From the NCBI RefSeq assembly GCF_009677585.1, contig NZ_WKYV01000022.1:69503-114782 (forward strand): DNA of 45,280 nt, read 5' to 3'. The notes beneath the pieces were generated by a model. The model was not told the origin of the DNA. It worked only from the letters and a program-made list of their open reading frames with translations, and did no database searches. This stretch comes from Lactonifactor sp. BIOML-A5 (GTDB lineage: Bacteria > Bacillota > Clostridia > Lachnospirales > Lachnospiraceae). This document shows positions 1 through 34,649 of the stretch, piece after piece; position 1 is the stretch's first letter, and each line of letters opens with the position of its first letter. The translations under genes and the position numbers were made by a program.

Positions 1-173
1 TGAACAATAGTATTGCGAAGAGTGACGCCGAAACCAAAGAGGTGATATATGATTATATTTGTTGCCTGCTCAATAATTTTGAATCGCTGAGTTACCAGGA
101 AAAGAATGAATTGATTAAAAAGGCTGTAAAGACATGCACTTATGACAATGGGAACATGCATATTATTTTTTAG
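1..173 (+). CDS. C-terminal end of a serine integrase (second copy, partial)
   Basis: The reading frame enters at base 3 and ends with TAG at 171-173. It encodes the last 56 residues of a large serine recombinase, identical at DNA level to the end of the gene at 33108-34649. The 5' part lies outside the window. It is followed 10 bases later by the attP-like site. Two readings are possible: a second, tandem copy of the same prophage lies to the left, or the sequence was assembled across the junction of a circular excised phage. The window alone cannot separate them. Confidence 0.9.
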   Translation, partial: NNSIAKSDAETKEVIYDYICCLLNNFESLSYQEKNELIKKAVKTCTYDNGNMHIIF

Positions 174-203
174 TTTCATTCTATATGTTATTCTTATTGG
201 TGT
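1..203 (+). repeat. 203-bp direct repeat, left copy
   Basis: Bases 1-203 match 34477-34679 with no difference that I could find. The repeat covers the integrase C-terminus, its stop codon and the left att half-site, and ends at the GT dinucleotide where the two copies diverge. The left edge of the repeat is set by the window start, so the true repeat may be longer. Confidence 0.95.
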
Positions 204-221
204 ACCGATAAGAAAAATATA
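184..221 (+). other. attP site of the serine integrase
   Basis: Two 18-base arms flank a central GT (202-203): tatgttattcttattggt on the left and accgataagaaaaatata on the right. The reverse complement of the right arm matches the left arm at 15 of 18 positions. An imperfect inverted repeat around a central dinucleotide, just after the integrase stop codon, is what attP sites of large serine integrases look like. In an ordinary prophage this place would be attL, with host DNA in one arm. Confidence 0.85.
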
Positions 222-230
222 TTGATTCAT

Positions 231-256
231 GGGAGGCCCGGTTACATTGGCCTCCC
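231..256. terminator. Bidirectional terminator after the HTH gene
   Basis: GGGAGGCC (231-238) pairs perfectly with GGCCTCCC (249-256) across a 10-base loop, followed by TATTTT on the plus strand. It overlaps the stop codon of the leftward HTH gene. In the circular phage it would also end rightward integrase transcripts crossing attP. Confidence 0.65.
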
Positions 257-453
257 TATTTTAGTTCTAACAGTTCATCTGCTGATGTTTTTAGCTGTAT
301 GCATATTTCTTTGAGTGTTTCAATTGATGGGCTGACCTCTCCCGTCTCCCATCTACTGATATCTTTTTGATATACTCCCAGCATATCGGCAAACTGTTTT
401 TGCGTCAAGCCAGCAGCTTTTCTAGCAGCCTTTAATTTTTCATAAAAGCTCAT
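256..453 (-). CDS. XRE-family HTH regulator, 65 aa
   Basis: This small DNA-binding protein consists almost wholly of one Cro/C1-type helix-turn-helix (about residues 5-60), with the usual pattern GLTQKQFADMLGV followed by the recognition helix and a W-E-x-G motif. Its start overlaps the end of the small membrane protein gene upstream (440-607), so the two are probably translated together. It likely represses its own promoter at 637-664, where a near-palindrome lies inside the spacer. It stands apart from the main phage switch, so it more likely regulates the att-proximal cargo than lysogeny. Its target genes are unknown. Confidence 0.85.
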   Translation of the reverse strand: MSFYEKLKAARKAAGLTQKQFADMLGVYQKDISRWETGEVSPSIETLKEICIQLKTSADELLELK

Positions 454-607
454 TTTTTAATCTTCCTTTCACTATATCTATGATTATTGATATCAGTGTA
501 CATATAGCTACAATAATCATACCAATTGTATTTATTAATCTCCACTCATTTATGATTGCTAAAATTAGAGTAATCAATGTCAATGTGATCATAAATCCAT
601 TTCTCAT
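440..607 (-). CDS. Small two-helix membrane protein, 55 aa
   Basis: An ATG at 605-607 follows a clear GGAGGG ribosome site and opens a 55-codon frame that ends 14 bases inside the HTH gene. The product has two hydrophobic stretches (about residues 6-20 and 29-46) separated by the short polar turn NEWRLIN, and ends with a basic tail (KGRLKNELL). Small membrane protein plus overlapping XRE regulator is a pairing I have seen in Firmicutes accessory DNA, but I cannot name this family. Possible roles are a membrane-acting effector held in check by the regulator, or a sensor; both are speculation. Confidence 0.7.
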   Translation of the reverse strand: MRNGFMITLTLITLILAIINEWRLINTIGMIIVAICTLISIIIDIVKGRLKNELL

Positions 608-636
608 TGTATTTTTCCCTCCTATCGTGTTATACT

Positions 637-664
637 ACCATACCATATTTGGTATTTTTATCAA
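637..664 (-). promoter_or_regulatory. Promoter and operator of the membrane protein/HTH pair
   Basis: On the minus strand, TTGATA (659-664) and TATGGT (637-642) are 16 bases apart. The near-perfect palindrome ataccatatttggtat (640-655) fills the spacer and touches the -10 box. A repressor bound there would block RNA polymerase, which suggests autoregulation by the HTH protein. A second candidate -10 lies slightly downstream. Confidence 0.55.
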
Positions 665-701
665 TACTTATTTAGAAAATAAATAATATAATTTCAATAA
701 T

Positions 702-734
702 AAAGACTCTTAGGATTTTACCCCAAGAGTCTTT
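702..734 (-). terminator. Terminator after the Panacea-linked membrane gene
   Basis: AAAGACTCTT (702-711) and AAGAGTCTTT (725-734) form a perfect 10-bp stem. Read leftward it is followed by a T-rich stretch (TTTATTATT). It lies directly after the stop codon at 736 and closes the two-gene operon 736-2165. Confidence 0.75.
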
Positions 735-735
735 G

Positions 736-1725
736 CTATTTTCCCTTTTTCCATGTCTGCTTTACTAATACCATAAGCAATATTATAAATACTGAAATAA
801 TTATTCCAAATCCACCCCACATTGCAAGTTGTGGCGAATTATTGCACCACGTTTTAAAGCTTGAATCGATATTTTCTTTCCTTATGTAGTATGTCCAAAG
901 GCTTCCCGCCAAAATAGTAAGTATAACTAAATTGCTCCACCATACGATAGGATATTTCTGAATAATATTTCCATCTGGTTCCTTATTCGATTTAAAATTC
1001 AATCCTGTCATTTTTCCTATACAAAATAAAAAAACAAATACCAAATTCAAAATACATATTCCCCATACGCACCCCACAATAATAACTTTTAATAATGGTA
1101 TCTCATGATTAGCGAAAATGCTTCCCAATGAACTAATACCACCAAATACTAAAAATGCAAGCGCTGTAAAAATGCTTACCATAGTCAGTAACTGTGCATT
1201 CATACTTTTCACGAGTTCATCCTTAAATGGAGTAATACTGTTATCGAATTTTTTCTTATACTCTTCATCCGTCTGTTTTAATCCACTATACTGCGTTTGT
1301 GCTAGGTTTACATGATCCCAAATTTTGATAAGCGCTTTTTCTGTATCTTCATATATCTTTTTTTCAGCCGACAACTTAATACTTGCCCTTTTGTCTTTGA
1401 AATCTTGCATTCCCGTAAATGCAACAATTTTTTCGATATTAGAAATCATTGTTCCCAAAGCAAGCGTAGCCTCTTCTGTCGTATGTTCATTATAATATGC
1501 GTAAATCATATTACTTATCTGTGAGTACAATATTCTCCCATAACCTTTGATATATTGAAAAATCGCATTAAAAGCATTTTCCTCATCAAATTCACTACTA
1601 TCGGTAAATAAAAGTGTGCATATCTCTGTAATCTTTTCTGACATTTCTTCAGTAATAACTCTATCATCAATTTTGAGTTCTACTTGTCTGGTCGTTTTAT
1701 TAATTTTAATATTTATTGAGGACAT
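736..1725 (-). CDS. Four-helix membrane protein paired with a Panacea antitoxin, 329 aa
   Basis: I do not recognise the family. The N-terminal half (about 1-170) is soluble, mixed and partly charged. The C-terminal half has four predicted membrane helices near 179-201, 211-237, 259-280 and 300-322, with a short lysine-rich tail. It starts 5 bases after the Panacea-domain gene, with GAGGTGG near that gene's end as a ribosome site, so the two form one operon closed by the terminator at 702-734. Panacea (SocA-like, DUF4065) proteins are known antitoxins that neutralise very different toxins, membrane proteins included. By that context this is a candidate membrane-active toxin or phage-exclusion effector. 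The function is inferred from position and topology only. Confidence 0.75.
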   Translation of the reverse strand: MSSINIKINKTTRQVELKIDDRVITEEMSEKITEICTLLFTDSSEFDEENAFNAIFQYIKGYGRILYSQISNMIYAYYNEHTTEEATLALGTMISNIEKIVAFTGMQDFKDKRASIKLSAEKKIYEDTEKALIKIWDHVNLAQTQYSGLKQTDEEYKKKFDNSITPFKDELVKSMNAQLLTMVSIFTALAFLVFGGISSLGSIFANHEIPLLKVIIVGCVWGICILNLVFVFLFCIGKMTGLNFKSNKEPDGNIIQKYPIVWWSNLVILTILAGSLWTYYIRKENIDSSFKTWCNNSPQLAMWGGFGIIISVFIILLMVLVKQTWKKGK

Positions 1726-1730
1726 TTATT

Positions 1731-2165
1731 CTAATCCACCTCGAAATATCTTTTGATACTTTCTGTAGTAATTTCATTATTCCATCCAGGCTTATAGGCC
1801 TCAATCCAAGGTGTCTGATTATGTGTAAGCTCAACAAGCGCAGATGCTGAATATCGTGAACACTCATCAATGATACCATCCAGTATTTCTTTATCTCTTG
1901 AAGAAATAATCTGTGTCACCCTAGATTTTCCAATGCATGGAATATTCGCACTACCAAACATTCTATATGTGTAATAAACATCTGGCACAACTGGTCCAAA
2001 ATCCCAAGCTTGAATTTCTTCAGCAAAACAAGGTACGTTTTTCGATACTAAAAATTCAGCCTGTATGAAATATAAAATCTTTTGCAATTTTAAATTACTA
2101 ATCGTCTTATTCGTTGCACTGCATCTTTCAATAACATAACGAGCAATATCCATTACCCTATACAT
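1731..2165 (-). CDS. Panacea (SocA-like, DUF4065) domain antitoxin candidate, 144 aa
   Basis: The sequence shows the family's hallmarks: SNLKLQKILYFIQAEFL near the N-terminus, then AWDFGPVVPDVYYTY, then a helical C-terminal part ending in a polar tail. The family includes SocA, GepA and the antitoxins grouped as Panacea, which bind and neutralise partner toxins. The protein is close to the domain's normal length, so nothing appears lost. I chose the ATG at 2165 because the SD-like GGGGATGAT sits at a suitable distance; the ATG at 2174 lies too close to it. The next gene, 5 bases downstream, encodes a four-helix membrane protein and is the likely partner. Confidence 0.85.
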   Translation of the reverse strand: MYRVMDIARYVIERCSATNKTISNLKLQKILYFIQAEFLVSKNVPCFAEEIQAWDFGPVVPDVYYTYRMFGSANIPCIGKSRVTQIISSRDKEILDGIIDECSRYSASALVELTHNQTPWIEAYKPGWNNEITTESIKRYFEVD

Positions 2166-2300
2166 ATCAATCATCCCCTCATTCTAAGCACAGTTATCTT
2201 TAATATATTATATTCATCTATACATAAATGATTATAACATACTTGTCAATAAGTTTACCAAAATTTATGTAATTTGTATCCCTTTTTCTTATGACGATTT
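2166..2300 (-). promoter_or_regulatory. Upstream region of the Panacea operon
   Basis: Very AT-rich DNA. On the minus strand a perfect TTGACA lies at 2244-2249; 17 bases downstream is TATGTA, a weak -10. A good TATAAT (2231-2236) lies too near that -35 and lacks a clear one of its own. A promoter here is likely, but its exact boxes are uncertain. Confidence 0.4.
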
Positions 2301-2349
2301 CACCTCTCTATTTCTGTATAGCTTAATAGTTTTTGCATACCAGTACCCT

Positions 2350-2474
2350 ACATCCGTCCATGTCCTGCCCCATGGCTAATAGGATGTATGGCAATGATAT
2401 GCTGGATGATATCGCTCAACCGTTAAACGCCGGATAACTTCACCGGGGCGTTGCTCTGTTTACATGTTACCGGC
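2350..2474. other. GC-richer structured stretch, possible noncoding RNA
   Basis: This part of the 2166-2700 gap holds no convincing gene but several nested inverted repeats: ACATCC (2350-2355) with GGATGT (2382-2387), enclosing CCATG (2358-2362) with CATGG (2371-2375); AACGCC (2426-2431) with GGCGTT (2447-2452); and GCCGGATAAC (2429-2438) with GTTACCGGC (2466-2474). The last two share bases, so they exclude each other. The stretch is clearly more GC-rich than its surroundings. Short plus-strand frames (for example 21 codons from the ATG at 2371) have no ribosome site. The strand and role are unknown. Confidence 0.4.
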
Positions 2475-2515
2475 TTGCGTTAATTTGTAGGCAGGTACAA
2501 ACTAATACAAGTACT

Positions 2516-2531
2516 TACTACCATGGTAGTA
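2516..2531. repeat. 16-bp perfect palindrome
   Basis: The sequence tactaccatggtagta is its own reverse complement over 16 bases. It could be a regulator binding site on the far side of the structured stretch. No promoter pair clearly matches it. Confidence 0.5.
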
Positions 2532-2640
2532 TACGGCTATATCATACTAACCAATTCTTTTATGCATAATATGAATAAGGTCACAATCAACATAGCTTTT
2601 AAAGATATAACCGCACATTCAATGAATATCTCTCTTTTCA

Positions 2641-2669
2641 TTGTTTTTATAGAAGACCTGTGGTACAAT
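2641..2669 (+). promoter_or_regulatory. Promoter of the antisense RNA
   Basis: TTGTTT (2641-2646) and TACAAT (2664-2669) are exactly 17 bases apart on the plus strand. Transcription would begin near 2676 and run against the small toxin gene. Confidence 0.65.
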
Positions 2670-2676
2670 TTTTATA

Positions 2677-2704
2677 AGGGAGAGGGGCTTTCGCCCCATT
2701 CCCT
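2677..2704 (-). terminator. 3' hairpin of the small toxin mRNA
   Basis: GGGGC (2684-2688) and GCCCC (2693-2697) with loop TTTC are extended by AGGGA (2677-2681) and TCCCT (2700-2704). Read leftward the stem overlaps the stop codon of the 37-aa peptide and is followed by TTATAAAAATT. This is a weak T-tract, so the hairpin may stabilise the mRNA as well as end it. Confidence 0.55.
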
Positions 2705-2816
2705 ATCTGGTAAGTATCTGTAATAGTGTGAGGACTATCAAGACTTTTACCAGTAGCTCAATAAGTTGGTCGCACAGCTTATTGAGCTTTTTTAATTGCT
2801 TTAGCAAGTCTTCCAT
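2703..2816 (-). CDS. Small hydrophobic peptide, candidate type I toxin, 37 aa
   Basis: An ATG at 2814-2816 follows the strong ribosome site AAGGAGGTGAAG. The peptide starts with a charged amphipathic part (MEDLLKQLKKLNKLCDQ) and continues with a leucine/isoleucine/valine-rich segment (LIELLVKVLIVLTLLQIL) long enough to cross or lie in a membrane. A strong promoter (TTTACA, 17 bases, TATAAT; 2850-2878) drives it. The plus-strand RNA at 2676-2793 is antisense to most of it. Size, hydrophobicity, strong translation signals and antisense partner all fit a type I toxin; I do not recognise a named family. Confidence 0.65.
   Translation of the reverse strand: MEDLLKQLKKLNKLCDQLIELLVKVLIVLTLLQILTR
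2755..2793 (+). terminator. Intrinsic terminator of the antisense RNA
   Basis: AGCTCAATAAG (2755-2765) pairs perfectly with CTTATTGAGCT (2778-2788), followed by a run of six T (2788-2793). The hairpin lies within the coding part of the opposite-strand peptide gene. Confidence 0.85.
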
Positions 2817-2849
2817 TTTCTTCACCTCCTTCCTTTATCTTATATACTT

Positions 2850-2943
2850 ATTATACACCCGTTTTAAGTGTTTGTAAATAGTGATATTCACCAAATATTG
2901 GTGTATATTTTTATATATACTGTACACCTGTTATAAGTTGATG
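2850..2943. promoter_or_regulatory. Divergent promoters of the small toxin and the HTH gene
   Basis: Leftward: TTTACA (2873-2878), 17 bases, TATAAT (2850-2855). Rightward: TTGATG (2938-2943), 17 bases, TATACT (2961-2966). Between them lie CACCAAATATTGGTG (2889-2903, six-base arms) and an overlapping GGTGTA (2900-2905) / TACACC (2923-2928) pair. These look like operators through which the HTH protein at 2990 could control both promoters. Confidence 0.6.
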
Positions 2944-2989
2944 TTTTTCATTAGATATGCTATACTTATAAACAGAAAGAGGTGATCGG

Positions 2990-3214
2990 ATGCTAAAATA
3001 TAAATTTGATGTATTGGAGAAATTAAAAGATTCCGGTTTTTCGACATACCGAATAAGAAAAGAAAAATTAATAGGCGAATCACAAATGCAAAAAATTCGT
3101 ACCGGAGAAATAGCCAGTAAAGAAACTCTTAATAAGCTTTGTGAATTGCTTAAATGCCAGCCTGGGGACATTTTAGAATATGTTCCTGACGACACTAAAA
3201 AAAGCCCCTCTTAA
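2990..3214 (+). CDS. XRE-family HTH regulator, 74 aa
   Basis: This compact Cro/C1-type DNA-binding protein has the helix pattern LKDSGFSTYRIRKEKLI, then IRTGEIASKETLNKLCELL and the GDILEYV ending seen in small HTH_26-like regulators. The ribosome site AGAGGTGAT and a good promoter (2938-2966) precede it. It is transcribed away from the small toxin gene, with which it shares an intergenic region holding inverted repeats, so it probably regulates itself and that gene. Its last codons overlap the hairpin that ends the late operon coming from the other side. Confidence 0.8.
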   Translation: MLKYKFDVLEKLKDSGFSTYRIRKEKLIGESQMQKIRTGEIASKETLNKLCELLKCQPGDILEYVPDDTKKSPS

Positions 3215-3224
3215 ATTGAGGGGC
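3197..3224 (-). terminator. Terminator of the late structural operon
   Basis: GCCCCTC (3204-3210) and GAGGGGC (3218-3224) form a perfect 7-bp GC-rich stem. Read leftward it ends in seven T (3197-3203). It sits a few bases after the last tail gene and overlaps the stop of the rightward HTH gene, so it may act both ways. Confidence 0.85.
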
Positions 3225-3229
3225 CATAT

Positions 3230-4201
3230 TTATTTGACACCGATTACCGATTTTATAACAATAAATTCAAATCTACTTCCTACATCCACTGTCATATATA
3301 ATATTATTTTTGCATCTGCTCCATTCTCACTTATTTCATAATCTAAACCTTCGACAAGAGTAATCCCATTGAGGCTTATCAATAATATGTCTTGCGTTGA
3401 ATCATATTGGCCAATACCTATTAATACTTGTGATGTTTTTGAATCATTTATAACAGTATTTTGATACTTTTCGATATAGGTATCAACTTTAAGTTCACCT
3501 GTTAAAGTAGTAAACCATGTATTAAAGTTCATCTTCTGTAGCTCTTGCCAACCATCAAATTCTGATTTTGTTGAATTTTCCCAACTTGCAAAGTTAGTTT
3601 CCATATTTCTTTGCCACTGAAGCATCGTACTATAATACTCCTCGTATGCCTTCTGCCACTGAAGAAAAAGCTGTGATGTATCTACCTGCTTAATAACTCC
3701 TGTTACCCAACCGCACACGTTATTATCTGCTCGTATATCTGTTATTTTACTCTGTGTTATTGAATTTACACCTTTTTCAATATATACATACGCAAGAAAT
3801 AATTCCCATCTTTCAGGGCTTCTTGTGGGCTGCGGTTTTATTGGGCTTGTTGCATAAGCGGAATCTATTGTTACCAGTTCCATTCTCCTGTTAGTGATAT
3901 CAAGCCTTATTGCTATAGCAGTATAGCGATTAAGTGTAACATGACTCGGATTTAGCGATATTTCTTCTATGCTGTCACTATTAAACCATTGTAAGTTTTC
4001 ACCTAAAATGGCTCTTCCCGTTTGTACCTTCACCTTCATTCCGGTACCTGCTTTTACTAGTAGTGCACCACCAACAGATTCATACACTCCAGTTGATACT
4101 ATACCTTTAAAATACGTGGACATTTGTTCTGCATTATAAACCCTGTCATGATTCCCATCACTGTCTAACTGACTGTTAAAAAATCCATATGTTATAGCCA
4201 T
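3230..4201 (-). CDS. Baseplate/receptor-binding-type tail protein, 323 aa
   Basis: It starts with MAITYGFFNS followed by a D-x-x-YNAEQMS pattern, as in many phage tail-tip proteins whose N-terminus docks on the tail and whose C-terminus reaches the host surface. A helical, tryptophan-rich middle (about residues 180-245) probably forms a trimeric coiled stalk. I chose the ATG at 4201, since GGGAGG lies 7 bases before it; an ATG 15 bases upstream overlaps the previous stop codon and has no ribosome site of its own. It is the last gene of the late operon, next to the terminator at 3197-3224. Receptor binding is inferred. Confidence 0.75.
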   Translation of the reverse strand: MAITYGFFNSQLDSDGNHDRVYNAEQMSTYFKGIVSTGVYESVGGALLVKAGTGMKVKVQTGRAILGENLQWFNSDSIEEISLNPSHVTLNRYTAIAIRLDITNRRMELVTIDSAYATSPIKPQPTRSPERWELFLAYVYIEKGVNSITQSKITDIRADNNVCGWVTGVIKQVDTSQLFLQWQKAYEEYYSTMLQWQRNMETNFASWENSTKSEFDGWQELQKMNFNTWFTTLTGELKVDTYIEKYQNTVINDSKTSQVLIGIGQYDSTQDILLISLNGITLVEGLDYEISENGADAKIILYMTVDVGSRFEFIVIKSVIGVK

Positions 4202-4203
4202 TT

Positions 4204-5265
4204 TTATACCTCCCATGAACTGAATGTAGGTATTGTCTTCCTTCCAGTTTCATCCTCATTATCTACAATTTCAATAATCCTCGGAGCTGCCTCCATCCCG
4301 AATTGATTTATTACCGATACAATATCACCTAGGAAATAGTCCTCACCATACAAGAAATTTCCCAAAGTTTCAATAGAACCCTCATAAAACTCTTTTATTC
4401 CTACCTCAGCTAGTTTTTCATTTCCCTTCTCTGCTAACGAATTCATGTATTCAGAATCCGTTATTTCCCCGTTATTACTGCTTACATCCCTGGCATCCAC
4501 GTATAATTCATACCTGTCAATACCTGCTGCATTTCCCACAATGGTTGTCCTTCTGTCCAGTCCTTCACCTTCCCCGGCAACTAACGCTACATTACAGTAA
4601 TCTTCCTTTTCCAGTACATAGTCTGAAGAAATCATATTATCAAATTCTTTTGAAAATACCACATGTGGATTTTTGTCTTGATTATATGAACGGTTTTCCC
4701 CTTTATACAGAACAAAGACAAAGTTATTTTTCTGGATATAAATATCCCATCCAATTCCTGCCGTTTCGCACACATCCTGCAGGAATTTCAATATGGTGTC
4801 CCCGGTTATTTGAATATCTAACGTCTCTGGGAATCCTCTCATAGGCCCCAAAATAAAATTAGAAATTTTTCTCTCTGCAATATTAGGTTGAATAATATTT
4901 TCTGTTAATACTCTTCTAATACAGTATTCCAGTTTCCCAACCATATTTGTCTGTTTCCATATGATTCTTCTTTTCATTAGAGATTTCAAACATTTCCCAC
5001 TTACAATCATATAATCTCCATCTTCTATGCTAGTCTGTATTTCAATTTTAGAGATTATCATAACATTATGAAATTCCGTATCTGTAATGTCCCGGTCCCG
5101 GCATAAATAGTAATCCTCTTTCAGCAAATTTATATATTCATCGGTTGCAGGTAAGTATAATTCAAAGTCTCCCGGAGTGAAATAGCGTGTGGTCCATATT
5201 ACACTTTTATATCCGTCAACTATGCCCTCTATTTCAAAATTGCGATTTAATACGTATATATCCAT
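4204..5265 (-). CDS. ReqiPepy6 Gp37-like tail protein, 353 aa
   Basis: The start MDIYVLNRNFEIEGIVD and the pattern VIWTTRYFTPGDFELYLPA match the siphovirus ReqiPepy6 Gp37-like family, a tail-tip protein found between Dit and the receptor-binding protein in many Gram-positive siphophages. It probably plays the structural part that Tal/gp18-type proteins play elsewhere, at the tail hub. Length is normal for the family. It lies 1 base from the Dit gene and just before the terminal tail gene, as expected for that role. Confidence 0.8.
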   Translation of the reverse strand: MDIYVLNRNFEIEGIVDGYKSVIWTTRYFTPGDFELYLPATDEYINLLKEDYYLCRDRDITDTEFHNVMIISKIEIQTSIEDGDYMIVSGKCLKSLMKRRIIWKQTNMVGKLEYCIRRVLTENIIQPNIAERKISNFILGPMRGFPETLDIQITGDTILKFLQDVCETAGIGWDIYIQKNNFVFVLYKGENRSYNQDKNPHVVFSKEFDNMISSDYVLEKEDYCNVALVAGEGEGLDRRTTIVGNAAGIDRYELYVDARDVSSNNGEITDSEYMNSLAEKGNEKLAEVGIKEFYEGSIETLGNFLYGEDYFLGDIVSVINQFGMEAAPRIIEIVDNEDETGRKTIPTFSSWEV

Positions 5266-5266
5266 A

Positions 5267-6115
5267 TCACACCCCCTGATACATATCTGTCAGTATAAAT
5301 GTGCATGAAAGATTATTTATATACTGTTCTGCTTCATACGTAAATACATTGTCTCCCGGCTCCAGCTGGAACCATTCCGATCCACGCTGTACTTTATTTA
5401 TAATATTTGTAGTTACACCACCTGCCGTAAATTCAATATACTTTTCGCCTCTCACCGTGTTAATAGTTATTACGTCTCCCGCTTTCATGGTAATATTAAC
5501 AATGAAGTATCCTCTGGTATCTACATTATATATCTTTGGAGTAACGACTTCCCCTGTTGCCCTTAACTCAATCCGCACGCCGCACGCAACGTCTCCCTCG
5601 TTAACAATGGATTTGAAAAGATTTCCTTCTAATTCTGAAAATGGTATTCCTGCTGCTTCAATCGCAAACGGAAAATGAAACATTTTAATCACGTTAAAAA
5701 AGTCTGTAATTACAGTCTGCATAGCTCTAAAATACGGGCGAGGACATAGTATACTTATCTGAGCCTGCTCTTTATCTGAAAACAGATCACATTCAAAAGT
5801 CTCTACATATCCCTCTATAAAGACATCCCTTGTCCCATTTTTATAATATACCTTAATATACTCTTTGCTTCTAATATATCGGTATAAGTTAATCCGGTTT
5901 AATTCAATGTCTGGATTAATTCGAATAGTAATAACAAGGCTACGGACTCCCAAACGGCTCCCATTAAATAAGGAGCCGTCAAAGGCTGCGCTTTCCGACG
6001 CATTAATTGTTGCTGTCGGCGGGTTTAATCCATCTATGCTGATAACATCATAGTTTTGTGTTCCTGTCAGCGGTAATTGCTCACCCTTTTTATTTTCAAT
6101 AGCAAGGAAATACAT
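5267..6115 (-). CDS. Distal tail protein (Dit-like), 282 aa
   Basis: It is placed directly after the tape measure gene, where siphophages carry Dit, the hexameric hub joining tail tube and baseplate. The sequence fits the family: an N-terminal beta-rich domain with DGLNPPTATIN and NGSRLGVRSLVITI, then YIEGYVE-like strands and CPRPYFRAM, and a C-terminal galectin-like beta domain (about 150-282). I chose the ATG at 6115 because AGGGGG precedes it at normal distance; the longer frame from 6133 overlaps the tape measure stop and has no ribosome site. Confidence 0.85.
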   Translation of the reverse strand: MYFLAIENKKGEQLPLTGTQNYDVISIDGLNPPTATINASESAAFDGSLFNGSRLGVRSLVITIRINPDIELNRINLYRYIRSKEYIKVYYKNGTRDVFIEGYVETFECDLFSDKEQAQISILCPRPYFRAMQTVITDFFNVIKMFHFPFAIEAAGIPFSELEGNLFKSIVNEGDVACGVRIELRATGEVVTPKIYNVDTRGYFIVNITMKAGDVITINTVRGEKYIEFTAGGVTTNIINKVQRGSEWFQLEPGDNVFTYEAEQYINNLSCTFILTDMYQGV

Positions 6116-6116
6116 G

Positions 6117-9100
6117 CTAAACCCCCTTTGCAAAATTCAATTGATTCCTGGTCTGCCTGTAAATATCTAAACGGGATAATGACTTAGGGCTTGTATTATA
6201 TTGATTAAATGTTTGATACACAACTGTCCCGCCTTTATTACCTGTAACTCCGGAATAATATGCACCAGCTGCAGAGTATCCCACTCTATTTCTTAAATTT
6301 CCCATTTTAGGAAGTGCAGGGTCCACCGGAACTATTAACTTATCAGCCAGATCCCCTGCTGCACGGATAGCTACATCAGCATATTGCCTTATACCCTCTG
6401 CAATACCATACGGTATCCATTTACCAACTTCATCCCTGGCACGTTTTGATGGAGAATTTGATTGAATGGACGCCTTTAATCCGTCAATTATCCCTTTTCC
6501 AAAGCCTACTACCTTATCTCTTAGCCAGCCGGCAGCGCCTGATATACCTTCCCAAACTCCGCTTACGATATCGCTTCCTATAGATAGCATTTTATCTGGA
6601 AGTTCTTTTAACCCATCCACAACGGCATTAAAAAGTTTCTTGGCGCCCTCAGTACCTTTAGTACCCATATCACTTACCCATGCTTTTAATTTGTCAATAA
6701 TTTCATTTAAAAACTCCTTTATCTTACCAGGCAACTGTTTTATAAAGTCTACAACATTATTGAGGAAATTACTGCCAGCCTCTTTCGCTTTATTTATCAT
6801 ATCAGTAACCCATGTCTTAACATTGGAAAGTGTATTGGTAATATACATGCTAACTTTTCCGGGTAGCTGCTGGAAAAAATTCACCACATTGTTAATAAAG
6901 TTACTTCCTACTTCTCTGGCCTTCGCAATCATATTTGAAACCCAGGTGACAACGTTATTGATTGTATTTGTAATGAAGGTCAGCACCTTCCCAGGCAATT
7001 GCTGGAAGAACTGCACGACGTTGAAAAGAAATTGTGTACCTACCTCAATAGCTTTTGTTACCATATTTGATACCCATGAAGCTACCGTCCCTATGACTGT
7101 CCCTAAGAAATATCCTATGTTATATGGAAGCTCCTGGAAAAAACTGATAACATTTGTGATGAACTGTGTCCCTACTTCTATTGCCTTTGCTACCATATTT
7201 GATACCCATGTACCTACCTTTGTAACAGTCTCAACTAAAAATGTCCAAATCCTGCCAGGGAGCGCTGAGAAAAACGACACTATTTTTGTAATAAACCCTG
7301 ATAAGAAGGAAATAAAATTATTCCATGCATTAGGTATTGTTACTTTAAAGAATTTTATAATTGCATTTACTGCTGTGCTCATAGCAGATTTGATTTTTTC
7401 CCATAGACCTATCCAAAAGCTCCGAAATGCTTCGGATTTGTTCCATAGGACTACAAAAGCAGTAACTAAACCAGCAATTGCAGCAACAATAAGTGTTACC
7501 GGTCCACCAATAGCAGCTAATGCTATTTTTAATCCGGCCCAGATTTTAGTCGCTCCTTGTACAACAGTTACAAACTTTGCAATACTTGCTACTAATGCTC
7601 CTATTTTTATAATTGCAAAAGCTGCAGCTATGCCGGATATCCCTGCAATTATAAGATCCTTGTTATCTAGAATCCATTTAAACCCTTCCTTTACCTTTTC
7701 AAACACATCATTAAATACTTGCTTTATTTCCGGTAGACGCGCTTTTATAACATCTACAAACTCCTTTATTTTAGGAATCGCCTCCTGTGCAAGCGGCATA
7801 AGGAAATCTGTCTTTATGATTCTACCAATTTCTGTGAACTGGCTTCCCACATCAGAGTATTTCACATCATTAAGCTCCTGCATGGAACTCTTTGTCTGGT
7901 CTATTCCTCCGGTAATTTCACCCATAGCCAGGATGGATGCCCCTCCAGTGTCTTCCCACATGCTTCCAAACAGGTTAACTGCTGCCGTATTCCTTGCTAC
8001 CGGATCTTCAATGGAGTTCAGTCCATCCATGGTCTGCTGGAAGGCTTCCTTAGCTGTATCGCCTCCTGCTGCAAATTTCTGTGCCATTTCATCCGCATTC
8101 AGTCCAATTGTATCAAACCCCTGTTTAGTGGTTTCGCTTCCATCAATCACACGTATTGTAAACTCATTAATGGCATCTCCCAGCTTATCAATATCGAATA
8201 CTCCGGCATCTGCGCCATTTTTCAGCATATTAAACATATCCTGTGCAGACATCCCCATCCCTTGAAACTTAGGCCCGTATTCGTTTATGGTATCCAGGAG
8301 ATTGTCATTCTGGTTCAAACCTTCCTGCGCTCCTTGCACAATTAGATTAAAGGCTTCTTCTCCCGACAGCCCAAAAGTATCCATCAGGCGGTTAGTGGCA
8401 CGCATTGATTCTTGTATATCCATTCCAAAGGTATCACGTAGCCCAATTGCATTTTTGGTAAGCTCTTTTAACTTTGATGGATCTACCTCTCCTGTCTGCT
8501 GCTTTACTTCTGCCATACAGTCCGCTATATCTTGCAATGACTCACCAAAGTTCTGCTTATACAAATCATTGATTTCATCCTTAAACTTTGACATTTCTTC
8601 TGCTGATGCTCCGGTCTGTGCCTGGAAATTTGTGTATGCATCATCGGCAGAGGTTATTAAGTCCTTAAGCCCATCAATGACCGCCCGTATCCCATCGGCT
8701 GCTAAATCGGCCAGTGCACCTTTAAGTACAGTAAATCCTCCCTCGGCTTTCTGAGCACTGTCACCAGCTTCGTCCAGTGATTCATCAAGATCATCTGCTG
8801 CCTTTTCGGTTTCAGATAACTTACTTCTATTCTGCTGCAGTTCTGATGATAGTTTTCCGATATCCGATGCTAACGATTTTGCCTCTTGAGAATTCTTCCC
8901 CTGTTCCAGCACCACGTCCGCATAAGCTTTCTTCAGCTGTCCTAGTTCTGTCTCCTGGTCATTAATTGTTGATTTTAATTTATCGGAAGCGGAAACAACC
9001 TCTTCTGTGGAATCTGACAGCTTTTCATTTTCAGACTTCACATCAGACAGTTTCTGCTGATATGTCCTAAGCTGCGCTTCCGTCTTTCCTACTGCTGCCT

Positions 9101-9407
9101 TCTGGTTATTGATTTTAATGAGAAGCTCCTGGGCAGCTTTCGAATTTTCTCCCTGCTCTGCTGCCACCTGCCTATACTGCTCTTCCAATATTGCAAGTTT
9201 GTTTTTTTCTTGTAAGAGCACACTGTCCAGTTGATTTAACTTTGCGGTCAGCCCATCTGCATTTTTTGACCAATCCTGCATCCCGGAAGTTGCCGCCTTA
9301 AATTCGGAATTTGCAAGGCGTATGTTTCTAACTGCCTCCTGCATTCCCTTTTTTAGGTCTGATATGTCAACTTTGAATTTTGTAGTTGTCTCATTTCCCT
9401 GTGGCAT
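6117..9407 (-). CDS. Tail tape measure protein, 1096 aa
   Basis: This is the longest gene of the phage, placed between tail chaperones and Dit. The N-terminal 250 residues are long alternating coiled coils. A tape-measure-type domain follows (about 270-560), then a hydrophobic stretch (about 590-660). Near 700-900 there are about five imperfect repeats of some 38 residues built on the pattern WVSNMxxKAxEVGxxFxxNV and FFQQLPGKV. The C-terminus carries SNSPSKRARDEVGKW, usual in Firmicutes tape measures. I chose the ATG at 9407 because AAGGAGGTG sits just before it. Protein length should set tail length. Confidence 0.95.
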   Translation of the reverse strand: MPQGNETTTKFKVDISDLKKGMQEAVRNIRLANSEFKAATSGMQDWSKNADGLTAKLNQLDSVLLQEKNKLAILEEQYRQVAAEQGENSKAAQELLIKINNQKAAVGKTEAQLRTYQQKLSDVKSENEKLSDSTEEVVSASDKLKSTINDQETELGQLKKAYADVVLEQGKNSQEAKSLASDIGKLSSELQQNRSKLSETEKAADDLDESLDEAGDSAQKAEGGFTVLKGALADLAADGIRAVIDGLKDLITSADDAYTNFQAQTGASAEEMSKFKDEINDLYKQNFGESLQDIADCMAEVKQQTGEVDPSKLKELTKNAIGLRDTFGMDIQESMRATNRLMDTFGLSGEEAFNLIVQGAQEGLNQNDNLLDTINEYGPKFQGMGMSAQDMFNMLKNGADAGVFDIDKLGDAINEFTIRVIDGSETTKQGFDTIGLNADEMAQKFAAGGDTAKEAFQQTMDGLNSIEDPVARNTAAVNLFGSMWEDTGGASILAMGEITGGIDQTKSSMQELNDVKYSDVGSQFTEIGRIIKTDFLMPLAQEAIPKIKEFVDVIKARLPEIKQVFNDVFEKVKEGFKWILDNKDLIIAGISGIAAAFAIIKIGALVASIAKFVTVVQGATKIWAGLKIALAAIGGPVTLIVAAIAGLVTAFVVLWNKSEAFRSFWIGLWEKIKSAMSTAVNAIIKFFKVTIPNAWNNFISFLSGFITKIVSFFSALPGRIWTFLVETVTKVGTWVSNMVAKAIEVGTQFITNVISFFQELPYNIGYFLGTVIGTVASWVSNMVTKAIEVGTQFLFNVVQFFQQLPGKVLTFITNTINNVVTWVSNMIAKAREVGSNFINNVVNFFQQLPGKVSMYITNTLSNVKTWVTDMINKAKEAGSNFLNNVVDFIKQLPGKIKEFLNEIIDKLKAWVSDMGTKGTEGAKKLFNAVVDGLKELPDKMLSIGSDIVSGVWEGISGAAGWLRDKVVGFGKGIIDGLKASIQSNSPSKRARDEVGKWIPYGIAEGIRQYADVAIRAAGDLADKLIVPVDPALPKMGNLRNRVGYSAAGAYYSGVTGNKGGTVVYQTFNQYNTSPKSLSRLDIYRQTRNQLNFAKGV

Positions 9408-9421
9408 CTTCCCACCTCCTT

Positions 9422-9655
9422 CTACCACCATCCGGCATTGTCACTTGCCCGCCTTCGAATTACTTTTTTCTTTCCTTGGTTTTGCTGCTCTTTTGAAGCC
9501 CTTATCTGCAGCTTCCTTAAATCTCGATATAACCTCATGACATTAAAAAAAGTTTCCCGTTCCAATCCCAGGGGATCGTAAACAGGAAACTCTTTACTTA
9601 AATTATAGCGTATCATAAAAAACAATTCGGATAGGGGCGTATCATCTACGCCCCC
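9422..9655 (-). CDS. Tail assembly chaperone, -1 frameshift extension (gpT-like)
   Basis: This frame lies between the gpG-like gene and the tape measure and is -1 relative to gpG. It has no ATG with a ribosome site of its own, but it reads without a stop back into the end of gpG. The joint would run EGGVDDTPLSELFFMIRY. The tail is basic (KKKVIRRRAS). This is the arrangement of lambda G/GT and its many relatives, where a few percent of ribosomes slip to make a longer chaperone that wraps the tape measure. The G-run and hairpin at 9634-9655 are the likely slip signal. Total GT length would be about 186 aa. Confidence 0.75.
   Translation of the reverse strand, partial: GGVDDTPLSELFFMIRYNLSKEFPVYDPLGLERETFFNVMRLYRDLRKLQIRASKEQQNQGKKKVIRRRASDNAGWW
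9634..9655 (-). promoter_or_regulatory. Programmed -1 frameshift signal
   Basis: On the minus strand five G (9651-9655) just before the gpG stop codon let the P-site GGG re-pair after a -1 slip. A perfect 8-bp stem GGGGCGTA/TACGCCCC (9647-9654 and 9634-9641) with a 5-base loop starts inside that run. The site lacks a textbook X XXY YYZ heptamer. Confidence 0.6.
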
Positions 9656-9981
9656 TTCTGATTTGGGTCCGTTGGTATGGAATTCATCTCTGCAAAAGTA
9701 TATTTAACAACATTTAAAATCACTGGAATTAATTCCTTTACTTTTACATAATTCCATTCTTCTTCCGATACATCTTCAAAAATAAGGGACAAAATTCCCT
9801 TTAGCTCCTGATATGCACCAGAAACTTTTTTTAAAATTTCTATGCTGTCGGTGGAGTTTTCAATATCAAGTAATGACATTAGACGCTCTATTGTCCCCAT
9901 CATAATATCTATGGTATTTCCCTTTACCTGTCTGACAACCTTCTTACCTTTTTTGTCATAGATATTCAGAATTAATTCCAT
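9646..9981 (-). CDS. Tail assembly chaperone (gpG-like), 111 aa
   Basis: A small acidic helical protein just upstream of the tape measure, following the major tail protein, as in nearly all siphophages. It starts with beta-like MELILNIYDKKGKKVVRQV and continues with helices; the ending EEWNYVKVKELIPVILNVV is seen in Firmicutes chaperones of this type. A GGAGG ribosome site precedes the ATG. The in-frame product stops at 9646; a second product is expected by slippage at 9651-9655. It does not enter the virion in known cases. Confidence 0.85.
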   Translation of the reverse strand: MELILNIYDKKGKKVVRQVKGNTIDIMMGTIERLMSLLDIENSTDSIEILKKVSGAYQELKGILSLIFEDVSEEEWNYVKVKELIPVILNVVKYTFAEMNSIPTDPNQKGA

Positions 9982-10010
9982 CTGCTATTCCTCCATTTTT
10001 CTCGTAATAT

Positions 10011-10661
10011 TTAGATTGTCGGTGTTTTTGGCGTTACAGTATCCGGCGTTTGTATACTTTCAAAGAATGTGCTTAAGTCTGTAAGTGCATATCTTTCATC
10101 TACCACAATGCCTTTTACAGATCCTTTTTCCCAGGTCCCCGCCGTTATCATCTTTCCATGTTCAAATTTATGTGATGTTGATATCCCTGTAAAGGTTAGC
10201 TCCATGTTATTAGAGTCGGTTCCGTCATCTTCCGTAGCTGTAGTCTCTTCCGGTATCCCGAATGTGCCTTTGAGCCTTGCTACATACCTGTATTTACCAT
10301 CTGTGCCTTTTGTCCGGTAGGTGATTGCAAAATACCGATTCACACGTTCTCCGTCTACCATCATACCTGTTTTTTCATCGAAGCTTTTCCCAGTCAGCCA
10401 TGCCTGCATCCTTAGAGAAGGCGGTGCAATGGTCAGTTTTATTTCGTCAGCTCCTTCAGAATTAATTACCAGCATAGGCTGATTATCATAATACTTGGAC
10501 TCAGAAGAGGTTTCTGTACTTTTACCTACTTCAGCAATGTATGACAGCATTTCTGGGGTTCCTGCCGTATATTCTGTAGTATCATCCTTTGTAACCTCAG
10601 CTACCATAAGGTTGTCAACTCCCCTGAATTCAAAAATTTCCTTTACGTCTTCAAATGCCAT
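10011..10661 (-). CDS. Major tail protein (phi13-type), 216 aa
   Basis: This is the tail tube subunit. The start MAFEDVKEIFEFRGVDNLMVAEV and the later YRYVARLKGTFG and NNMELTFTGIS strands fit the phi13 family of siphovirus major tail proteins, which form the hexameric tube rings. An AGGAGG ribosome site lies 6 bases before the ATG, consistent with strong expression. It sits between a tail-terminator-like gene and the tail chaperones, the usual order. The C-terminus ends in a threonine/proline-rich tail. Confidence 0.9.
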   Translation of the reverse strand: MAFEDVKEIFEFRGVDNLMVAEVTKDDTTEYTAGTPEMLSYIAEVGKSTETSSESKYYDNQPMLVINSEGADEIKLTIAPPSLRMQAWLTGKSFDEKTGMMVDGERVNRYFAITYRTKGTDGKYRYVARLKGTFGIPEETTATEDDGTDSNNMELTFTGISTSHKFEHGKMITAGTWEKGSVKGIVVDERYALTDLSTFFESIQTPDTVTPKTPTI

Positions 10662-10662
10662 T

Positions 10663-11016
10663 TTAATTTCCTCCTATATATTTCTTGAATAGGACGTTTA
10701 CACCACGTCCATCATGAGTAGGTTCATCACTGGCTACGGTGTAACCGTCACCAGATATGATAAATCCCTGGCTTTTAAGTTCCTGGATAGATGCTCTGAG
10801 CTGTGAATATACCTTTTCTGGATCACAGCTATAGAAATTTACATCATAATTATAAATTAACGCCCGTTCTTTATTGTCGTAATAAGCAGCGCCCTCACTG
10901 GAGTTGTTCCAAAACGTATAAAAGTGGTCTGGATATTTATCATCGTCTGTCAAAGAACCTTGTAAATACACCGGATATCCCGATTTTCTCAGGACTTCTA
11001 TCAGCAGATCCTCCAT
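10663..11016 (-). CDS. Tail terminator/tail completion-like protein, 117 aa
   Basis: A small protein between the HK97 gp10-like protein and the major tail protein, the usual place of the tail terminator that caps the tube and joins it to the head. Features are MEDLLIEVLRKSGYPVYLQGSL, a TFWNNSSE patch and a YDVNFYSCDPEKVYSQL strand-helix segment, a pattern known from Firmicutes phage tail completion proteins. The role is from position and resemblance. The stop lies one base from the next start. Confidence 0.7.
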   Translation of the reverse strand: MEDLLIEVLRKSGYPVYLQGSLTDDDKYPDHFYTFWNNSSEGAAYYDNKERALIYNYDVNFYSCDPEKVYSQLRASIQELKSQGFIISGDGYTVASDEPTHDGRGVNVLFKKYIGGN

Positions 11017-11020
11017 TTTG

Positions 11021-11434
11021 TTATCCTCCCATCTTCTTTTGGATTTCCTGTGTCAATATTTCCTGCTGCATCTTCTCAATCTCTTTTTTGGTCTTACTTC
11101 CATAAACATCGTTGTACAATTTTTGGTCCTTTGCCATTTTAGGCGTTCCATACATTAAAAATATGGATGCAAGTCCCCCACTCCTAATATGAAAGCCTAC
11201 ATCCATACCAGCTGTATTTCCTTCCCAATTAACCTTTGCCGTTTGGTCAATGCTTCCCTCAGTTCTTCCTGTCCGCCGATGACACTTCATATCCTCCTGG
11301 AGTTTTGGTGTGATGTATTCATGTGTCTTTTGCAGTGCTTTTTGAGTTACCGTTTTTAAATCACCATTAAGACTATCCAGTTGTTCCATCATTGTCTTGA
11401 AAAGTTCACCTTTAAACGTTATTTTGTTTGCCAT
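11021..11434 (-). CDS. HK97 gp10-like head-tail protein, 137 aa
   Basis: The region HRRTGRTEGSIDQTAKVNW followed by GMDVGFHI and YGTPKM is typical of the HK97 gp10 family, small neck or tail-completion proteins. I chose the ATG at 11434, which overlaps the preceding stop codon (TGATGG); the frame can extend one GTG codon further. The C-terminal 25 residues are a charged helix rich in K, E and Q. Gene order (capsid, connector, closure, gp10-like, tail terminator, tail tube) supports the call. Confidence 0.85.
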   Translation of the reverse strand: MANKITFKGELFKTMMEQLDSLNGDLKTVTQKALQKTHEYITPKLQEDMKCHRRTGRTEGSIDQTAKVNWEGNTAGMDVGFHIRSGGLASIFLMYGTPKMAKDQKLYNDVYGSKTKKEIEKMQQEILTQEIQKKMGG

Positions 11435-11790
11435 CACACACCGCCCTTTACACGTTTGACCTTAAATTTGCAGAACTGATTACGCATATTAATATTTTCC
11501 GGCTCTCCGATCACTTCATATACCACATCGGTATTGTTTGCTAAAGCAATTCTTGAGTCAGATCGGATATCTGGCCTATACCATGTTGTAATGTTTGCCG
11601 TATCTTCTACACTGTATACACCGTTGTTTTGTACTTCAGTTCCCCCATATGTTTTAAAAGAGCAATACAGCAAATCCCCATTTTCAGCGTTGGGATAAAC
11701 CTTTTTAGGGCTGGCTTTTTTATTGGTTGTTGAAGGGTTTAACAACCGGATTGGTATAGGGAACGATTCTTCAGGGAAAAAGTTTGACAT
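11434..11790 (-). CDS. Phage head closure protein, 118 aa
   Basis: Located third after the capsid gene. It has the small beta-barrel pattern of head closure proteins (SPP1 gp16-like): GDLLYCSFKTYGG, TWYRPDIRSDSRI, VVYEVIGEPENINMRNQFCKFKVKRV. The last part, describing a property of N-M-R-x-Q-x-x-x-F-K-V-x-R, is common in this family. It would close the connector channel after packaging. Its stop overlaps the next start by one codon, indicating coupled translation. Confidence 0.8.
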   Translation of the reverse strand: MSNFFPEESFPIPIRLLNPSTTNKKASPKKVYPNAENGDLLYCSFKTYGGTEVQNNGVYSVEDTANITTWYRPDIRSDSRIALANNTDVVYEVIGEPENINMRNQFCKFKVKRVKGGV

Positions 11791-11792
11791 TG

Positions 11793-12065
11793 TTATTCAC
11801 CGCCCTCCAGTTTTAGCTGTATTGCCCTTTCATAAAAATATGGTGACAGCTTTCCGTTTCCGGCTCCATAGCCCCATAAATCGGACACCCCACGGGAAAT
11901 TATGCCGGAAGCTGCCTCTGATGTTACAATGCTTTCCTTTACCCCTGCACTTTTTAGGTAGTTTTGTACCTCCTTAATATACGCATTCAGCGTTGGGTCC
12001 ATGAATTCACCTGTAATTCCCAGTGCATCCTTGACACTTTTTAAAATATCAAATGTTTCCGGCAT
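11793..12065 (-). CDS. Head-tail connector (gp6-like), 90 aa
   Basis: A short all-helical protein directly after the capsid gene. The pattern DILKSVKDALGITGEFMDPTL followed by a YIKEVQNYLKSAGV helix and GVSDLWGYGAG fits the HK97 gp6-like connector or DNA packaging adaptor family, which forms a ring under the portal. A strong AAGGAGGTGAA ribosome site precedes the ATG. Confidence 0.85.
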   Translation of the reverse strand: MPETFDILKSVKDALGITGEFMDPTLNAYIKEVQNYLKSAGVKESIVTSEAASGIISRGVSDLWGYGAGNGKLSPYFYERAIQLKLEGGE

Positions 12066-33107: not shown

Positions 33108-34649
33108 ATGAGAATAGGCATTTATCCGAGAAAATCAGTTTACAGGGACAACAGTGAATCTATTGCCGTTCAGATCAAGATGTGCAAGGATTACGCTAAT
33201 ATTGTGTTTGCAGACCAGCCCTTGGAATTTAGGATATATGATAAAGATGAGGGGTTTTCAGGGAAAAACACTAAACGTCCATCATTTCAAGAATTGATGG
33301 AAGATGTAAAGTCTAATAAGCTTGATTTAGTAATGGTCTATAGATTAGATAGGATAAGTCGAAATGTAAACGAATTTTCAGAAATGTATGAGATTATGCA
33401 TTCACATAACGTTGGCTTTCTTTCCATTAAGGAAGCTTTCGACACTAATACATCTATAGGACGTACTGTAATGTATATACTTTCTGCCTTTTCTCAGTTT
33501 GAGCGTGAAAATACATCTGAGCGTGTAACAGACAATATGCAGGCACTTGGCGCATCTGGCAAGTGGACCGGTGGAAAACTCCCTGCAGGCATGAAGTCTA
33601 TTAGAAAAGAAATGGGTGGTAAAGAACATTCGTACCTATTGGTAGATGATGAAAAAATAAAGCTTGTGAAAATGATTTATAATATGTTCTTAGAAGGTAA
33701 CTCTATTACTAAAATAGAAAGATATTGCCGTGACCATGGTATAAAAAGTGAAAGAGGTAAATACCTGAGCACTTCACAAATTTACTGTATGCTTTCTAAC
33801 CCGGTATATTGCAGCAATGAGATGTCAGCCTACTACTATTTTCTTGAGAAAGGTTATACCCTTCCAGATTCACATCTTTTTGATGGGACAAGAGGACTAA
33901 TCGGATACGGCAGAACACGGCAAAATGATAAAGTAATTGCAAATAATAAATGGACTATTGGCGTTGGCATCCATACACCAGTCATTCCAGCCAATGAGTG
34001 GATATCCGTGCAGAAACGTTTTGGAGAAAACAAATTCTTCCGTAGTAACAAATATGAAATTGGGCTACTAAAAGGTGTCCTTAAATGTAAATGCGGCTCA
34101 AGAATGGATGTAAGAACATATAGCAAAAATGATAAACTGTTCTCTTATTATTATTGTGCTACTATGCAAAGAAAAGGGAAGCAATATTGCAATAGCGGTT
34201 ACATTCGGGTAGCTGATATCGATAACGCTTTTCTAGACATATTACTTCAGATTAAGTCCAATCCTGAAATGATAAGACTAAGAAAGGAAGAGTTATCATA
34301 TACAGATGTTGATATACTGAAAAAAGAGCTAAAAAGCATTCAACAATCTATAGATAACCTTACCAATACGCTTATGGACAATATAGGTTCAACTGCATCC
34401 TCCTACATCGTTAAGCAAATTGAAAATCTTGATAAAGATAAACGGAAGCTGGAATCTAGCCTTGTTACTGCTGAAATGAACAATAGTATTGCGAAGAGTG
34501 ACGCCGAAACCAAAGAGGTGATATATGATTATATTTGTTGCCTGCTCAATAATTTTGAATCGCTGAGTTACCAGGAAAAGAATGAATTGATTAAAAAGGC
34601 TGTAAAGACATGCACTTATGACAATGGGAACATGCATATTATTTTTTAG
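33108..34649 (+). CDS. Large serine integrase, 513 aa
   Basis: The N-terminal resolvase-type domain (1-150) has the nucleophile Ser10 in RIGIYPRKS and catalytic arginines in MVYRLDRISR, then SAFSQFERENTSERV. A recombinase domain follows (about 165-290) with KLPAGMKSI and YLSTSQIYCMLSNPVY, then a zinc ribbon with KCKCGSRM and a later YYYCAT/QYCNSG Cys pair, and a coiled-coil C-terminus (about 400-470) that controls direction. The attP half-site follows 10 bases after the stop. Its last 203 bases, with the att half, are repeated at the window start. A separate directionality factor was not identified. Confidence 0.95.
   Translation: MRIGIYPRKSVYRDNSESIAVQIKMCKDYANIVFADQPLEFRIYDKDEGFSGKNTKRPSFQELMEDVKSNKLDLVMVYRLDRISRNVNEFSEMYEIMHSHNVGFLSIKEAFDTNTSIGRTVMYILSAFSQFERENTSERVTDNMQALGASGKWTGGKLPAGMKSIRKEMGGKEHSYLLVDDEKIKLVKMIYNMFLEGNSITKIERYCRDHGIKSERGKYLSTSQIYCMLSNPVYCSNEMSAYYYFLEKGYTLPDSHLFDGTRGLIGYGRTRQNDKVIANNKWTIGVGIHTPVIPANEWISVQKRFGENKFFRSNKYEIGLLKGVLKCKCGSRMDVRTYSKNDKLFSYYYCATMQRKGKQYCNSGYIRVADIDNAFLDILLQIKSNPEMIRLRKEELSYTDVDILKKELKSIQQSIDNLTNTLMDNIGSTASSYIVKQIENLDKDKRKLESSLVTAEMNNSIAKSDAETKEVIYDYICCLLNNFESLSYQEKNELIKKAVKTCTYDNGNMHIIF

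Follow-up and report, generated by a model that had tools for sequence, protein, structure and literature searches.

Panacea gene and putative membrane-toxin partner near the attachment site of a Lactonifactor prophage

What kind of system is formed by a Panacea gene, panA, and the gene for a predicted membrane protein that follows it at one end of a prophage in Lactonifactor sp. BIOML-A5? The two genes lie in a 45,280-nt stretch of contig NZ_WKYV01000022.1 (positions 69,503 to 114,782; hereafter the window, whose own coordinates are used throughout). In the main text of Kurata et al. 2022 (PMC8832971), Panacea proteins are described as neutralising unrelated toxins through direct binding, and the abstract of Ernits et al. 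2023 (PMC10440598) likewise describes direct neutralisation by standalone Panacea domains. In this work, profile searches, scans of genome and phage collections and structure prediction were combined, and we propose, at a probability of roughly 0.7, that panA and its partner constitute a prophage-borne Panacea (PanAT) type II toxin-antitoxin operon, whose toxin would depolarise the membrane in the service of phage defence or prophage upkeep.

The two genes form a compact operon on the minus strand. PanA matches the Pfam family SocA_Panacea (PF13274; DUF4065) with E 2.3e-20 and 74 bits (cut-off 25.7), as well as phrog_1281. Its open reading frame (ORF) opens at 2174 and ends at 1731; ATG 2165, the start taken in the sequence-only reading introduced below, is the better start, because the nearest PanA relatives are 144 aa long and the sequence GAGGGG stands 9 nt ahead of this codon. 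The partner gene follows on the same strand after 5 nt, and its ribosome site GAGGTGG sits within the final panA codons, so translation of the pair is probably coupled. Since a protein search with the partner gave 409 relatives at E<=1e-3, its gene is no chance ORF. Both ORFs, the Pfam match, four hydrophobic segments and a terminating hairpin (Table 1) confirm what an earlier reading by a model from the DNA letters alone (the sequence-only reading) had claimed, namely a Panacea gene and a 329-aa four-helix protein in one terminated operon.

Central to the proposal is the constancy of this pairing. A pattern scan based on the partner alignment found 15 loci in 84,980 species genomes, and in all 15 a PanA ORF lies directly upstream on the same strand; 13 of these pairs look whole. 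The two exceptions appear to be decayed or misassembled copies. Locus L015 combines an intact panA with a split partner; L013 has a fragmented partner and, close to the contig start, only 55 aa of PanA. This PanA fragment was detected only in phmmer and profile scans, the single Panacea match of that genome lying elsewhere, and may simply run off the contig. Decay that begins with the partner would be consistent with its being harmful. A tblastn search of a phage collection with the partners of the relatives gave 22 records, or 20 in a partner-first count that omits L022 and L023, both discovered by way of PanA and themselves employed as queries. PanA is located upstream in 13 of the 13 examined among these 20 (L040-L052), the records outside the 13 being two duplicate accessions (P9, SpT152), four Javan527-like records and one P9-like record. 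These PanA proteins were called by an iterated profile, and Pfam was also applied to eight of the 13: seven reach the cut-off (L044 barely), and L045 falls just under it (25.1 against 25.7). Loci L058-L067 have PanA in 10 of 10 cases, but are mostly copies of the queries or contigs already seen. The partner thus stands beside Panacea in every partner-first locus examined, and the contrary pattern, a partner occurring mostly without Panacea neighbours, by which the sequence-only reading would have been refuted, was not observed among the 15 genome loci and the 13 phage records.

The two genes also keep their spacing and appear to share a history. Nominal distances between panA and the partner gene range from -41 to +28 nt in 36 pairs, a set that omits the broken L013 and L015, L016 and L018 (the same as the window and L001 loci, respectively) and L035 (the same as L034). 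Over these pairs the PanA and partner distance matrices correlate with r 0.82, a value reached in none of 2000 permutations and from which the shared ancestry of the carriers was not removed. At least 10 partner clusters and PanA clusters coincide in the size of their longest carrier sequence (e.g. 408,958 and 230,424 bases), which points only loosely toward the same linkage. Genome samples gave few matches: alignment A1 matched one of 392 genomes of the order, and alignment A3 matched four of 398 genomes of the phylum, with only the already known locus strong and the other three matches short and marginal (E 2e-4 to 1e-3). The pairing rate therefore rests on the collection scans. Because the pairing is so strict, the partner can be used as a marker for such loci.

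Panacea itself is promiscuous in its choice of partner, in line with published work and with what the sequence-only reading had stated. Among phage regions found through PanA (10 examined of 145 records), two have the partner (L022, L023) and eight do not; other neighbours of PanA include a GTP pyrophosphokinase-like gene in L021 and phrog_8366 proteins in L020, L024 and L027. Among 11 viral contigs found through the closer kin of the window PanA, the partner is present in nine, L034 and L035 carrying an identical protein; it is absent in L033, and L039 is cut off.

The partner has no family in Pfam, NCBIfam or PADLOC by profile search. This supports the sequence-only reading, which did not recognise the protein. 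Its description as new-looking has to be qualified, the superfamily being already catalogued as PHROG 5763 (function unknown), which the partner matches with E 1.6e-19 over residues 26-278 (profile positions 7-276 of 283). A profile search with the partner gave 479 relatives, scored among only the 7996 candidates sharing most words; 120 matches were listed for each of the two protein searches, few of them named. The named relatives among those listed, together with the 15 genome loci, come mainly from Lachnospiraceae, Oscillospiraceae and other gut-type Clostridia, with the exception of one Erysipelotrichaceae genome and one bin labelled Bacteroidales.

Family-mean hydropathy divides the partner into a soluble N-terminal part and four hydrophobic segments (approximately residues 175-206, 207-244, 258-282 and 293-326). 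The first of these spans, IFTALAFLVFGGISSL, is the most conserved stretch of the protein, with a mean of 4.0 of 4.3 bits over residues 181-200 versus 2.35 over residues 1-170 of the soluble part, in which the motifs RILYSxISNxIY and KIWDHxxLAxxQY recur (alignments A1-A3). Counts of lysine and arginine (none in loop 1, four in loop 2, three in loop 3 and four in the C-terminal tail) lean toward a cytosolic location of both ends, and the large N-terminal domain is likewise predicted to be cytosolic rather than exposed. The AlphaFold2 model, built on 93 sequences (predicted local distance difference test score, pLDDT, 77; predicted template modelling score, pTM, 0.43), is all-helical and without strands: a helical domain at 20-115 is followed by an 86-residue helix (119-204) that forms a stalk running into span 1, and further helices at 211-240, 259-283 and 298-324 agree with the hydropathy segments. 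In the viral fold library this model has four significant matches, all of them phage proteins, one being the partner of Staphylococcus phage SpT152.

A Foldseek comparison of the model with solved structures in the PDB gave no confident match. CorA chains recur weakly, with E > 1 for every CorA match listed, and this recurrence indicates a similar layout and no more. In one non-toxic reading, the partner would serve cell physiology as an ion transporter or CorA-like channel gated by PanA. CorA proteins carry a GMN motif where their first membrane span ends, and this motif is missing from the window partner; moreover, the patchy distribution seen in the order sample is unlike that of a housekeeping transporter. 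We therefore regard a transporter of this kind as highly improbable.

Distant relatives of the partner occur in phages of Streptococcus, Listeria and Staphylococcus, and this broader family, represented by PHROG 5763, was reached through PanA matches and the genes downstream of them. Searches of the phage records directly with the window partner gave no match, and neither the single partner nor alignment A1 found relatives among the viral contigs. The connection is made by profiles: PHROG 5763 matches the Listeria protein with E 2e-41 and the Javan235 protein with E 7.5e-95, and a profile of the gut-type branch alone scores 32.5 and 18.5 bits with these two proteins, respectively. The phage relatives share 16-21% identity with the window partner, and the marks kept across this distance are the tyrosine in RxxYSxIS, the KxxDHxxLAxxQ helix and the FGG that ends span 1. 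By eye, spans 2 and 3 are joined by a Cys-rich loop (e.g. CGCENKRTCSH), possibly a metal site, in many of the streptococcal and Listeria proteins (L022, L023 and several of L040-L052). In SpT152 (NC_055024; L053, 1571-2026) an unannotated panA lies between the endolysin gene and the 5' part of the partner gene, and the record start carries a nearly identical stretch, there with the 3' part of that gene.

The position of the pair at a phage end recurs in these relatives. In 11 of 15 phage records it lies within 2 kb of the record end, and among the other four the Listeria pair is 0.7 kb from the integrase gene; the usual order in Streptococcus prophages is lysin, panA and partner, often followed by other cargo, near the record end. 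Satellite phages also carry the pair. In the window, bases 1-203 have an exact second copy at 34477-34679, which spans the 3' end of the serine recombinase gene, and the identity ends at base 203, inside the centre of an imperfect dyad that is the probable attP. The virus record G001 (34,674 bases) begins with sequence matching window 256-12000 and closes with sequence matching window 1-453; 198 bases are present at both record ends, so that it crosses the junction as a circle would. On the simplest reading, bases 1-203 are the circle junction (attP) and 34477-34679 the integrated right end (attR side), the phage circle measures 34,476 bp, and the panA-partner pair lies about 0.5 kb inside the attachment (att) site. 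The junction and the integrated end would then stand in one contig, and the sample probably contained excised phage circles. Genes for tape measure, major tail, portal and terminase proteins follow further along on the same strand. The att-proximal position at a prophage end, as given by the sequence-only reading, is supported.

A membrane protein next to att could also be a superinfection exclusion factor, which would block the entry of related phages into the lysogen without being toxic, PanA serving only to regulate or stabilise it. The predicted membrane location of the partner and the cargo position, adjoining att in the window and near the record end in the 11 phage relatives, are what such a factor would lead one to expect. 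However, the constant linkage to an antitoxin domain and the copies beside restriction-modification or Wadjet-like genes described below fit a toxin-antitoxin pair better, and the large N-terminal domain is predicted to face the cytosol. Exclusion finds no specific support and is considered unlikely.

The surroundings of the pair differ from locus to locus. Compared by BLASTP with the window, the 15 genome loci share nothing beyond the pair except ORFs antisense to it and, in L011, one small helix-turn-helix gene; flanking ORFs are common to only six of 105 pairs of these loci, L002 and L004 being syntenic and the others sharing one or few genes. Given these differing surroundings, panA and the partner gene behave as a cassette. 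Hence no longer conserved operon encloses them, and this, together with the Panacea domain and the tight recurring pair, completes the three features of PanAT systems that can be looked for in sequence.

Pfam was applied to 10 large neighbouring proteins from eight of the 15 genome loci. In L001, HsdM and HsdS are encoded upstream, with a ResIII protein further up the same contig (type I restriction-modification). In L012, what is read as a type III restriction-modification system, with a DNA methylase and a ResIII restriction subunit, ends about 40 nt before the PanA ORF. L003 encodes a JetC-like SMC protein (E 8.5e-50; Wadjet-like), with about 1.7 kb between it and the PanA domain that lies downstream; against PDB sequences, one of two upstream proteins of this locus is MukB/Rad50-like and the other has no match. 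Nothing decisive was found in five of the eight loci, where an HNH_2 protein (L011) and an ATPase (L010) were recognised, the large neighbours in L002, L004 and L008 had no Pfam match and the 500-aa upstream protein of L002 had no match among PDB sequences. The placement of three of eight loci beside restriction-modification or Wadjet-like genes is suggestive and is not a measured enrichment. In two loci the partner gene is followed by a gene for a 209-225-aa protein (L005, 6990-7619; L010, 5561-6238; 48% identical), possibly an accessory third gene.

These neighbours bear on a further reading, in which the same toxin-antitoxin chemistry is selected to keep the prophage, satellite or island in the cell and not for defence. 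Addiction of this type is in keeping with the phages and satellite phages that carry the pair, often near the record end, and with the evidence of excision in the window provided by the circle junction, whereas the copies near restriction and Wadjet-like genes suggest defence cargo. As the sole role of the pair it seems to us possible rather than probable; it overlaps the toxin-antitoxin explanation preferred here, and the two roles are not exclusive. As between phage defence and prophage retention, the defence neighbours lean to defence, and the phage and satellite carriers allow both.

Table 1. Features of the window that bear on the panA-partner pair and its position in the prophage
Feature	Position	Strand	Basis or remark
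panA, standalone Panacea domain antitoxin gene	1731..2165	-	144 aa from ATG 2165 (147 aa from ATG 2174)
Partner, putative membrane toxin (PanT) gene	736..1725	-	329 aa; 409 relatives; phrog_5763 E 1.6e-19
Helical domain and stalk helix of the partner (residues 20-176), predicted cytosolic	1198..1668	-	alignments A1-A3, AlphaFold
Partner residues 178-324, four predicted membrane spans	754..1194	-	hydropathy, conservation, AlphaFold
Terminator hairpin ending the operon	702..734	-	15 pairs, -19.7 kcal/mol, z -7.0
Large serine recombinase (integrase), 3' end borders att site	33108..34649	+	Pfam Resolvase/Recombinase/Zn_ribbon_recom; phrog_95 integrase
Imperfect dyad TTATTGG-TGTA-CCGATAA	194..211		probable attP

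Several other features of the prophage were recorded. Besides the serine recombinase at the att end there is a second site-specific recombinase, an internal tyrosine integrase (25233-26228, minus strand). Lysis genes usually lie near the tail end; the endolysin-like gene of this prophage (21187-22305) stands away from there, upstream of the terminase small subunit gene. A replication-associated protein of the REP_ORF2-G2P family (27643-28371; E 4e-15) is encoded within this tailed prophage. On the minus strand at 2703-2816 (ATG 2816), a 37-aa hydrophobic peptide is encoded behind the ribosome site AAGGAGGTG and a promoter-like sequence at 2878-2850 (11/12), and most of its gene is overlapped by a stretch on the plus strand that carries a terminator at 2755-2788. 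The region 2665-2845 folds with z -8.2 on the plus strand and z -3.9 on the minus strand; it has no match in Pfam or Rfam and is possibly a type I toxin-antitoxin unit.

Under the preferred toxin-antitoxin reading, PanA would bind the cytosolic helical domain or the stalk of the partner and keep it inactive. Once another phage infects or the prophage disappears, for instance, PanA may be lost or switched off; the partner would then oligomerise through the stalk, with span 1 lining an ion path; the membrane would depolarise and growth would stop, so that the infection is aborted or prophage loss is penalised. Several points weigh against this reading. The partner has no shown homology to any verified toxin, and its toxicity, its binding by PanA and its effect on phages are predicted. 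It is large (261-368 aa in whole copies), whereas many membrane PanTs are 'putative small peptides' in the main text of PMC8832971, and ten further predicted pairs were without toxicity in E. coli according to the relevant passages of the 2023 network study (PMC10440598). Because the model is moderate in confidence and has no clear PDB match, pore formation is an inference, and the three lysine or arginine residues in loop 3 leave the membrane topology less than certain. Some neighbours have no link to defence, such as, by comparison with PDB sequences, an amino-acid transporter downstream in L002 and a Sel1-repeat protein 3.5 kb downstream of the L005 partner.

In a variant of the mechanism, which we consider doubtful, the partner would form an oligomeric ion channel and PanA, rather than being a disposable antitoxin, would stay clamped on its stalk as a permanent sensor, the channel opening when a protein of the infecting phage engages PanA. 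A model for such control without dissociation is the fused toxSAS CapRel, as presented in PMC10440598. If true, such Panacea-gated channels would make up a channel family of their own, found repeatedly near prophage and satellite ends in Bacillota.

Since membrane toxins paired with Panacea are already described, the new part here would be the toxin family and not the kind of system; the partner probably represents an uncharacterised membrane-toxin family to be added to the Panacea network. A literature search, covering main-text passages of PMC8832971 and PMC10440598, found no published characterisation of the partner, and the main text of PMC8832971 makes no mention of Streptococcus, Lachnospir-, Firmicutes or Javan phages; the streptococcal or the window branch may already be among the 88 published PanT clusters. 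The family spans Lachnospiraceae, Oscillospiraceae and related genomes, where it is rare in samples and has hundreds of protein relatives, as well as streptococcal prophages and satellites. With an antitoxin that consists of nothing but a Panacea domain, the pair offers a simple case for studying what Panacea senses and how a membrane protein is controlled.

Among known systems, RosmerTA of Gordonia phage Kita (RmrT-D5) is also phage-encoded and has a toxin with a C-terminal membrane region, and RmrT-D5 depolarises membranes and protects from phages in the account given in PMC10440598. Its antitoxin is described there as an ImmA-type protease; the window pair has Panacea instead, and neither window protein has a PADLOC match. 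Closer in its antitoxin is the pair toxFtsL-D9 : PanA of Gelidibacter mesophilus, which combines a large toxin (281 aa) with membrane helices and a standalone Panacea neutraliser; the same source describes GAF and FtsL-like regions and filamentation without depolarisation as its cause, in contrast to the all-helical model of the window partner. The PanAT membrane toxins described in the main text of PMC8832971 share with the window pair a Panacea antitoxin and a toxin with membrane helices. The antitoxin-first order of the window is also the commoner one there (943 versus 325). Verified membrane-targeting PanTs come from Helicobacter sp. 13S00482-2, E. coli STEC O31 and Bartonella apis, and these three Panacea-paired toxins depolarise membranes. 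The Helicobacter PanT, with a coiled-coil-like N-terminal part and C-terminal membrane helices, depolarises without large pores, and its layout resembles the predicted soluble N-terminal part and C-terminal membrane helices of the window partner. Compared by description and not by sequence, the window partner differs from the verified PanTs in its long conserved helical domain and four spans. Finally, many of the phage proteins of PHROG 5763 have, by eye, three spans and the Cys-rich loop, in contrast to the four spans and lack of a Cys cluster in the window branch; they are homologous to the window partner, have PanA directly upstream and lie mostly near the end of the phage record.
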